Source of the DNA: Bdellovibrio svalbardensis
GTDB taxonomy: Bacteria > Bdellovibrionota > Bdellovibrionia > Bdellovibrionales > Bdellovibrionaceae
Assembly: GCF_029531655.1 (NCBI RefSeq)
Contig: NZ_JANRMI010000001.1
Coordinates: 496,001-560,000, forward strand
Length of the DNA: 64,000 bases
Direction: 5' to 3'
The notes under the pieces: generated by a model
Database searches by the model: none
Seen by the model: the letters and a program-made list of their open reading frames with translations, nothing else
What the model was told of the DNA's origin: nothing
Part shown: piece by piece, positions 4,229-6,599 of the stretch
How the letters are laid out: every line of letters begins with the position of its first letter
How positions within the stretch are numbered: position 1 is the first letter of the stretch
Program-made: the position numbers and the translations under genes

Positions 4229-4762
4229 TTAGAGAATTTCTTCACTTGCAAAGTCAGCGTGCTTATCTTCATCGGTGAAGAATGTTTTGAGATCCGGGGA
4301 AACATAGCTGACCTCAGAAATACGACCTTCTTGGCAGCCTTTCAGTGTGTCGCGAGTTCCATCGTAATCACACTCACCTGTGTACCAAGCTTTTTCAGAG
4401 TACTGGATGGTGTAGCCCACGAGTTTTTGATCCTTATAAAAAGCAGTTACCAAATCCAAACGAGTGTAGCCAGAAGAAGTGTAGTCACCTTCAAGGATCG
4501 TGTCGCCCCAGATTTGCGCTTGCTCCCATGCGACCTTTTTCAATTGGTCTTTTAGAACAGCCGGCAATTTAGTTGATTTCGTTTTTTGATTATACAGAAC
4601 CGCAAAACTGTAGGGAGCTTTGCAAGTTTTGTCAGAGCAAGCATTTGTGAAGTGAGCAGCCTCTTCATAAAATTTATCCCCTTGAGGACCCATTTTATCG
4701 GCCATGGCAAAAGGAGACACCAAAACGCTCAAAACCACTGCTGCAAAGAATTTCACGCCCAT
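4229..4762 (-). CDS. Small secreted protein of unknown function
   Basis: 177 residues with an N-terminal signal peptide ending near A-M-A (about 22). I choose the ATG at 4762 over one eight codons earlier because an AAGAGGTG ribosome binding site sits just upstream and the hydrophobic core then follows directly. The mature protein has paired cysteines (C-S-D-K-T-C and C-D-Y-D-G-T) and a segment resembling small periplasmic proteins with Asp-rich loops. No family recognised. It stands alone between the ABC exporter operon and the repeat-flanked acetyltransferase. Confidence 0.75.
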   Translation of the reverse strand: MGVKFFAAVVLSVLVSPFAMADKMGPQGDKFYEEAAHFTNACSDKTCKAPYSFAVLYNQKTKSTKLPAVLKDQLKKVAWEQAQIWGDTILEGDYTSSGYTRLDLVTAFYKDQKLVGYTIQYSEKAWYTGECDYDGTRDTLKGCQEGRISEVSYVSPDLKTFFTDEDKHADFASEEIL

Positions 4763-4850
4763 AACACACCTCTTGTTAAGAACCATAGCCCCAAAACAAA
4801 AGATCTTTTAATACATACCCAAGAAGTTAATATACACCCCACGCATACCA

Positions 4851-4919
4851 AAGGGTGCCTGCCGTTTTCTCGGAAAAGGTGCCTGTCATCTTTTTGGGTC
4901 TACACCGCATCAATTTTAA
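4851..4919 (+). repeat. Inverted repeat copy A flanking the GNAT gene
   Basis: About 67 bases nearly identical to the reverse complement of 5500-5566; I count only about four differences plus a one-base length change by eye. Inside is a TTTTCTCGGAAAA core between two GTGCCTG motifs. Immediately after it (4922-4955) comes a related hairpin with arms GCCTGCTTC and GAAGCAGG. The pair brackets the acetyltransferase gene. Confidence 0.85.
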
Positions 4920-4921
4920 GA

Positions 4922-4960
4922 GTGCCTGCTTCATTTTCCGAAAAAGAAGCAGGTACTTTT
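4922..4960 (+). terminator. Hairpin with T-run at the 3' end of the GNAT gene
   Basis: Arms GTGCCTGCTTC and GAAGCAGGTAC around a 13-base loop, followed by CTTTTTAG on the plus strand. It lies directly after the stop of the minus-strand acetyltransferase. The T-run orientation suits plus-strand termination better than minus, so it may be a repeat-family element and not a functional terminator of this gene. Confidence 0.5.
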
Positions 4961-5487
4961 TAGATTTTCTTTTCGAGGATGACGAATTCGAGGTTGTCGA
5001 CTTTGGGTTGGCCGAAGCGTTCGTCGCCATAAGGGAAAGGGCGCTTTTCGCCGGTGTTGCGGAAGCCGAGCTTTTCATACCAGGCGATAAGCTCTTTGCG
5101 AACTGAGATCACGGTCATATAGATTTGAGTGCAATCCCAGAATTGGGCGAAGGCCTCACTCTCTTGAACCAACATGCGGCCGATTCCTTTTTTCTGAAGA
5201 GTAGGATCGACGGTGAGCATGCCTAAGTAGCACTTGTTTTCGTGCTGCTCCAGATGAACGCAGCCAACTAATTTGTCATCGTCGTCCTCATCTTGAGCAA
5301 TTAGAATTGTCGAGTTGTCTCTTGTGAGTGCGGCAATAATACTTTCAGAATCAACACGTTGTCCGCCAAGCAAATCTGCTTCGGTCGTCCAACCTTTTTT
5401 GGAGCTGTCGCCGCGATAAGCGGAATTCACCAACGTAACGATGGCATCAACATGACTCTCATCAGCTTGTGTAAATTCAATATGCAT
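4960..5487 (-). CDS. GNAT family N-acetyltransferase
   Basis: 175 residues with a GNAT fold pattern: the acetyl-CoA pyrophosphate loop Q-K-K-G-I-G-R at about 98-104 preceded by the L-T-V-D-P strand, and the late Y-E-K-L-G-F motif typical of the family. The ATG at 5487 is chosen because AGAGGT stands at good spacing; the open frame runs further upstream only because it reads through repeat copy B. Substrate unknown; relatives acetylate small amines or protein N-termini. The gene is a single cistron bracketed by inverted 67-bp repeats, which raises the possibility that it moved as a unit. Confidence 0.9.
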   Translation of the reverse strand: MHIEFTQADESHVDAIVTLVNSAYRGDSSKKGWTTEADLLGGQRVDSESIIAALTRDNSTILIAQDEDDDDKLVGCVHLEQHENKCYLGMLTVDPTLQKKGIGRMLVQESEAFAQFWDCTQIYMTVISVRKELIAWYEKLGFRNTGEKRPFPYGDERFGQPKVDNLEFVILEKKI

Positions 5488-5499
5488 AGAACCTCTCAA

Positions 5500-5566
5500 T
5501 AAAATGCTGCGCTGTAGACCCAAAAAGATGGCAGGCACCTTTTCCGAGAAAACGGCAGGCACCCTT
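5500..5566 (-). repeat. Inverted repeat copy B flanking the GNAT gene
   Basis: Near-perfect inverse copy of 4851-4919. It occupies the space upstream of the acetyltransferase start and runs into the stop codon of the methyltransferase gene (5565-5567), so its arrival or spread has set the 3' end of that gene. Confidence 0.85.
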
Positions 5567-6599
5567 ATTTTTTAGTGCAGTAGATGAATAACTCTTTGCC
5601 TTGGCGGTTGGGAACTGATTTTTGCCAGCGGCCCCAGAAAATGGGCTGGTAATTGTTTTTGAGGCGTTGGCGGAGTTCCCATTCTGTGCCGCCGAAAGGT
5701 GGGCCCTGGCGTTTTTCGAAGGTGAAGAAGACACCCATGAGGTGGCCGCCGTCGGCAAGAACGCGGTTCCAGACTTTGACCAGATCTTGGCGTAAGCTTG
5801 GGTTGATCGCGCAATAACAAGTGTGTTCGAAGACAACATCGAAAGATTTGTCGAAGCTGCGTGGGAGGTCGAACAAGTCGGCTTCCATAAACTTCAAATT
5901 TTCCATGTGGCCGTATAGTTTTTTGGCGCGCTCAAGTGCCAGAGGAGAAATATCCACGGCCGTCACGACATGACCTGCGGCTGCAAACATCGCAGCGTCG
6001 TGGCCTTCGCCGCAACCCAGAACCAGAATGCGCGAACGTGAGATCTTCAGACGCGGCAACATGTCTTTCAAGGCTTCCGCAGGTTCGCCTAAATTCCAAC
6101 CGGGGTTGTTGTCGTTTTGATAAGACTTGCTCCAGAAAGTTTCTTTTTCAATTTCGGGCGTATCGTCCCAATAGGGAGGAATTTGATAAACTTTGCCATC
6201 GAAAGTGATGCTTTCATCGTCAAACTCTTCAAGCATATTGAAGAACTCGGCCTGGGCTTTTCGCGACATCACGAAAGGAACATTTTTTTCAGTGTAACCG
6301 TGGAAACGATCCCACTCATCTAGGGAAAGTGACTCAAGCTGGAAATTAAATTCAGTGCCGTAGAGGCCATGAATTTGCCAGGTTTTTCCTTCAAGATAAA
6401 TTTGCTGGGCAATCAAAGGCTCGTCGAAGGCTTCGACGATGACGGGGGTTCCGCCGAAAGTACTCAGCAGAGTTCCGCCGGCGTGGACTTGTAGATTTTT
6501 TAGAAGCTCAGATCCCACTCGAGAGTCTTGGATGCGCAGCTCGCGGCTGACTCCGTAACCTTCTTCATCAATTTGAACGAATTGAGTGGGAATTGCCAT
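5565..6599 (-). CDS. SAM-dependent methyltransferase (TPMT-like) with N-terminal extension
   Basis: 344 residues. The C-terminal half is a class I methyltransferase: motif I I-L-V-L-G-C-G-E-G-H at 191-200, the acidic V-D-I-S of motif II about 20 residues later, and a D-V-V-F-E-H-T-C motif reminiscent of thiopurine methyltransferase-like proteins. The first 130 residues form a separate domain I do not recognise. The ATG overlaps the TAA of the upstream gene (TAATG), so translation is probably coupled. Methyl acceptor unknown; small thiols, selenium or halide compounds are typical for the TPMT group. Confidence 0.85.
   Translation of the reverse strand: MAIPTQFVQIDEEGYGVSRELRIQDSRVGSELLKNLQVHAGGTLLSTFGGTPVIVEAFDEPLIAQQIYLEGKTWQIHGLYGTEFNFQLESLSLDEWDRFHGYTEKNVPFVMSRKAQAEFFNMLEEFDDESITFDGKVYQIPPYWDDTPEIEKETFWSKSYQNDNNPGWNLGEPAEALKDMLPRLKISRSRILVLGCGEGHDAAMFAAAGHVVTAVDISPLALERAKKLYGHMENLKFMEADLFDLPRSFDKSFDVVFEHTCYCAINPSLRQDLVKVWNRVLADGGHLMGVFFTFEKRQGPPFGGTEWELRQRLKNNYQPIFWGRWQKSVPNRQGKELFIYCTKK

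Follow-up and report, generated by a model that had tools for sequence, protein, structure and literature searches.

In the genome of Bdellovibrio svalbardensis, an acetyltransferase gene lies between two near-identical repeats that face each other, which raises the question of whether the repeats brought the gene to this place or landed on either side of a gene that was already there. The locus was analysed in a window of 64,000 nucleotides (NZ_JANRMI010000001.1, positions 496,001–560,000, assembly GCF_029531655.1; the window genome is G000 below). The preliminary description had offered two readings, a small mobile or amplified cassette and a REP-type element flanking one gene. The second is supported and, for this gene, the first is not: the repeats, called copies A and B here (Table 1), are members of a dispersed REP/REPIN-like family that is multi-copy, intergenic and RAYT-linked, and their presence or absence in relatives is independent of the gene.

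Table 1. Features of the acetyltransferase locus, with positions in the window
Feature	Position	Strand	Remarks
185-aa protein	4229..4786	-	In most relatives the conserved gene that follows GNAT downstream
Copy A	4851..4918	+	REP doublet and inner tail; right-arm position relative to GNAT transcription
Third REP hairpin, short	4921..4962	-	Abuts the GNAT stop codon; TAAAAAGTACCTGCTTC..GAAGCAGGCACTC; repeat family D1
GNAT acetyltransferase, 175 aa	4960..5487	-	ATG at 5487, stop at 4960; ancestral, syntenic in the genus
Copy B	5501..5566	-	REP doublet and inner tail; right after the methyltransferase stop, sense orientation
Methyltransferase, TPMT/Methyltransf_25-like, 344 aa	5565..6599	-	Full length; upstream neighbour of GNAT; in 24/24 genomes

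A repeat search of the window finds inverted arms at 4851–4916 and 5501–5566, which are 66 nt long, 94% complementary and 584 nt apart, and thereby bears out the near-identity described earlier; their length and identity exceed chance. Copy A consists of an outer unit (AAGGGTGCCTGCCGTTTTCTCGG), an inner unit (AAAAGGTGCCTGTCATCTTTTT) and an inner tail (GGGTCTACACCGCATCAATTTTA). The gene between the arms is complete and has its own ribosome-binding site, as described: GAGAGG precedes a start codon that is conserved in relatives, and the reading frame matches Pfam Acetyltransf_1 with 56 bits. It is not the only element there, since the short third REP-like hairpin also lies between the arms; the stretch that holds this hairpin (4851–4962) has a folding z-score of -2.3. 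Taken singly, copies A and B score z -0.5 and -0.3 against shuffled sequences, and because neither folds better than shuffles alone, they are regarded as arms or remnants and not as full REPINs. The preliminary description had copy B cutting into the next gene. In fact the first two bases of copy B are the last two of the methyltransferase TAA stop codon (5565–5567); truncation of the methyltransferase is ruled out, since a comparison with 23 orthologues shows its protein to be full length. If started at a GTG, the GNAT reading frame extends to 200 aa (window 5488–5562) and runs through copy B, so that automatic annotation could misplace the GNAT start within the repeat; relatives use the ATG that matches 5487.

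Other copies of the repeat are found throughout the genome. A BLAST search with copy A returns 46 matches in its own genome, about 20 of them at E<1e-4, with copy B at E 5e-23. The family unit combines a hairpin core, AAAAGGTGCCTGCCATCTTTTT (or ...GCTTC...), with the tail GGGTCTACAxCGCRTYAA behind it; an additional outer core is found in some copies, A and B among them. With up to 3 mismatches allowed, the tailed pattern occurs 17 times in the genome versus 0 for a reversed-pattern control, in a census that is based on searches and selected genome stretches. Copies at locus L068 (97% identity) and locus L067 (89–91%) are nearly as close to copy A as copy B is, and A and B are alike because both belong to the same family. 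The copies sit between genes, and many begin at a stop codon or a few tens of bases past it, in sense orientation; REPs in other bacteria lie mostly downstream of genes and sometimes supply their stop codons (PMC3733652). A GTAG is present on the strand on which the tail is read (TTGTAGACCCAAAAAGAT...), set off from the hairpin by ACCC, and is absent from the tails of some species. In classic GTAG-REPs this tetranucleotide stands directly 5' of the hairpin (PMC3733652). The family is not assigned to the GTAG-REPs because its head is not located at the foot of the hairpin.

The RAYT of this genome, a Y1 transposase gene at G000:C3:249771-250606, for which G000:C3:249950-250222 is also given, is likely the mobiliser of the family. 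It is bracketed by near-identical, inward-facing arms of the same family. Its orthologues are found between the same two flagellin genes in five species (G000, G013, G017, G003 and G009). Both flanking arms carry a GGGTCTACA-type tail in four of the five (G000, G013, G003 and G009); G017 has the same bracket, with arms that carry a different, diverged tail. The core of the flanking arms varies with the species: GTGTCTGTCG in G013, GTGCCTGCTTC in G003 and G009, and GTGCCTGCCATC in G000. The protein exceeds the cut-off of Pfam Y1_Tnp and reaches 65 bits with NCBIfam REP_Tyr_transpos, which is under the 80-bit cut-off of that model. The motifs HFH/HYH, RYHR/RFHR and YRNPV are conserved across all five orthologues, giving the protein the HUH motif and conserved Tyr of the RAYT subgroup. 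Another Y1_Tnp gene of the genome (L070:3211-3858) is bracketed, at L070:3175-3987 (G000:C1:607674-608486), by a repeat of a different type, the perfect palindrome AAAAGGTGCCTGGCACCTTTT. This palindrome is found at other places in the genome too, which suggests that there is a second REP-RAYT pair.

The GNAT gene follows the same methyltransferase in 20 of the 20 relatives compared, with or without repeats, at 66–83% identity. An empty site lacking GNAT was sought in these relatives and found in none, and synteny in all 20 rules out GNAT as transposed cargo. Most of them also share a 164-aa gene upstream of the locus and the 185-aa gene and an ABC ATPase downstream. The shorter loci of G005 and G015 have GNAT adjoining the methyltransferase as well, and in G019, where the locus is seen without GNAT, the methyltransferase lies at a contig end. 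G014, G016 and G021 are examples of genomes in which GNAT is syntenic and neither gap contains a repeat. The gap between the methyltransferase and GNAT measures 9–38 bp where it is empty (11 genomes) versus 79–186 bp where it holds a REP or REPIN (12 genomes). According to the preliminary description, an old local structure would show itself by the same gene and both repeats in all relatives and by a lack of copies elsewhere; the gene is indeed in place, the repeats are not in all relatives, and copies exist elsewhere. Downstream, some relatives have another gene between GNAT and the gene for the 185-aa protein, for which a Pfam search gave no match. In about half of the genus, roughly 940–1000 bp with an extra reading frame separate these two genes (loci L120, L125, L126, L128, L130 and others). 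The N-terminus of this frame resembles MIKGLILA..., and the frame is absent from the window species and its sister species.

The sister species (G013, support 98/92) separates the two repeats in time. It has a left arm after the methyltransferase stop, which resembles copy B in its tail and in the inner junction that precedes the ribosome-binding site of GNAT. Its gap downstream of GNAT is 65 bp long and repeat-free, with no copy A. Since the sister has the B arm but lacks A, the two copies arrived separately, and since relatives carry the gene at this place in any case, the repeats and GNAT do not form a mobile cassette. The best reading is that B is the older of the two and that A is private to this lineage among the genomes compared. 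That copy B and the arm of the sister species are one inherited insertion, as opposed to two insertions at a hot spot, is suggested by position and junction only.

Very probably, then, A and B are separate, partly decayed REP/REPIN-like copies, likely mobilised by RAYT, that flank an old GNAT gene by chance. Copy B would be the left arm of an element that was inserted just past the methyltransferase stop before the split from the sister species, and it may since have lost its partner arm. Copy A would be part of a later element, inserted past the GNAT stop codon in this lineage only. RAYT would have moved these repeats, presumably by a single-strand mechanism. The near-identity of A and B reflects descent from one family that was active recently, and their facing orientation reflects the tendency of REPs to form inverted doublets (REPINs) and local clusters. 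GNAT is a long-standing member of the operon and lies between them by coincidence. The ancestry of the gene, the order in which A and B arrived, their family membership and the bracketing of RAYT are the parts of this account that are shown. Such a feature is nothing out of the ordinary for a repeat family linked to a RAYT.

The pairing of the arms nevertheless has a counterpart elsewhere in the genome. The 15 tailed copies other than the RAYT pair contain three inward pairs with arms 0.3–2 kb apart, 0 outward pairs and 0 tandem pairs. Random placement yields a mean of 0.023 inward pairs, and 0 of 20,000 trials reach three, under a model that ignores REP clustering and the after-stop bias. The excess is a lead, not proof, and local clustering accounts for it only loosely. 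The three pairs enclose GNAT, a CNNM gene (L068), and a LysR regulator together with a 114-aa gene (L069). The CNNM gene is ancestral though bracketed, which rules out that every REP-bracketed gene is an insertion. At L069:2758-4370 (G000:C1:760257-761869), the inward REP arms coincide with the ends of an insertion made up of the 114-aa gene and the LysR regulator. In relatives whose contig extends far enough to show it, a DUF1266 gene adjoins a 146-aa gene (the two are further apart in G005), and the flanks of L069, when joined at the outer ends of the REPs, give an intergenic sequence that resembles that of the relatives. The genus contains no LysR orthologue at E 1e-20 beyond one 24%-identical match, and no close relative was found in a collection of 84,980 genomes (one 35% partial match). 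L069 is one real, species-specific, REP-bounded gene insertion; it could equally represent genes inserted inside an older REPIN. Because this pair exactly bounds an insertion that has an empty site, cargo transport by these repeats is conceivable elsewhere. Another inward REP pair, in G003 (L140:2170-3636, G003:C5:367166-368605), encloses an isochorismatase-like gene, seen in G003 and G006 only, and a nuclease that is present in many relatives.

Two broader readings build on these pairs. According to the first, which we regard as doubtful, RAYT-linked REP arms in this genus can pair inward over 0.6–1.6 kb and so bound a non-autonomous element that carries genes; the LysR and 114-aa genes would have been moved in this way, with GNAT and CNNM enclosed and not yet mobilised. 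According to the second, which is unlikely, a REP that has lost its partner (B) is re-paired by RAYT, which would place an inverted arm (A) within about 1–2 kb, so that ancestral genes become enclosed as potential passengers. Such re-pairing agrees with the inward pairs (three among the 15 tailed copies outside the RAYT pair, against a random mean of 0.023 and with none outward or tandem), with the greater age of B, and with the ancestral status of both GNAT and CNNM. However, there are three pairs only, in the CNNM and LysR pairs the arms belong to different subtypes, the random model leaves REP clustering out, and the sense, after-stop placement of many copies is in itself enough to favour inward pairing where genes converge.

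Complete elements do occur at the site of copy B in other species. In G022 the gap between the methyltransferase and GNAT holds a complete REPIN that forms one long hairpin (-34.2 kcal/mol, z -10.6), and the stems in this gap co-vary among species, 6 of 22 pairs having changed on both sides (8 sequences). Between G001, G003, G008, G020 and G022 the full hairpins in the gap differ considerably in their inner tails yet remain self-complementary, which suggests that the element at this one site has been replaced or has changed in concert. The compensatory changes would also fit a role of A and B as a pair of regulatory hairpins or terminators that selection maintains around GNAT. This is very unlikely, as roughly half the relatives lack a repeat in the gap, A and B do not outperform shuffled sequences in folding, and the repeat is found at unrelated loci; an Rfam search for a structured RNA family gave no match. 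The least probable reading, that RAYT moved a mobile cassette in trans, with A and B as its two ends and GNAT as the gene that it brought here, can point to an anatomy that mirrors the bracket of RAYT itself, to the excess of inward pairs and to the pair at L069 with its exact empty site, but as an account of how GNAT reached the window locus it is refuted by the synteny of the gene, with and without repeats, in all relatives compared, and the sister species, with a B arm and no A, indicates that GNAT did not arrive between A and B.

The locus has parallels among known systems. A RAYT bracketed by inverted REPs is the defining arrangement of the REPtron (PMC2817692). Like the REPtron or RAYT-REP system (Nunvar et al. 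2010, PMC2817692), the present genome has a Y1 (HUH) transposase gene flanked on both sides by inverted copies of a palindromic repeat that is dispersed through intergenic regions, and the repeats occur in inverted doublets and clusters. Unlike in that system, copies here also bracket non-transposase genes, their number is in the tens (REPs usually exceed 100 per genome in PMC2817692), and the GT(A/G)G head does not stand right at the foot of the hairpin. The gap of G022 has the two inverted REPs forming one long hairpin that characterise the REPIN (Bertels and Rainey 2011, PMC3116915), whereas the window has single arms only, 584 nt apart and with a gene between them; REP singlets were interpreted as remnants in that work. 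TIRtrons, in which RAYT-like genes (TIRYTs) are flanked by long terminal inverted repeats that form moderately abundant families, are similar as well, but they were described in other species, and the word Bdellovibrio is absent from that paper (PMC3733652).

A literature search for REP or RAYT in Bdellovibrio found nothing relevant, and the present analysis adds a RAYT-linked, long-tailed repeat family in this genus of predatory bacteria. With 24 aligned genomes, the genus offers one locus at which filled sites can be compared with empty ones. If the LysR insertion is indeed bounded by REP arms, gene carriage by domesticated RAYTs would become testable.
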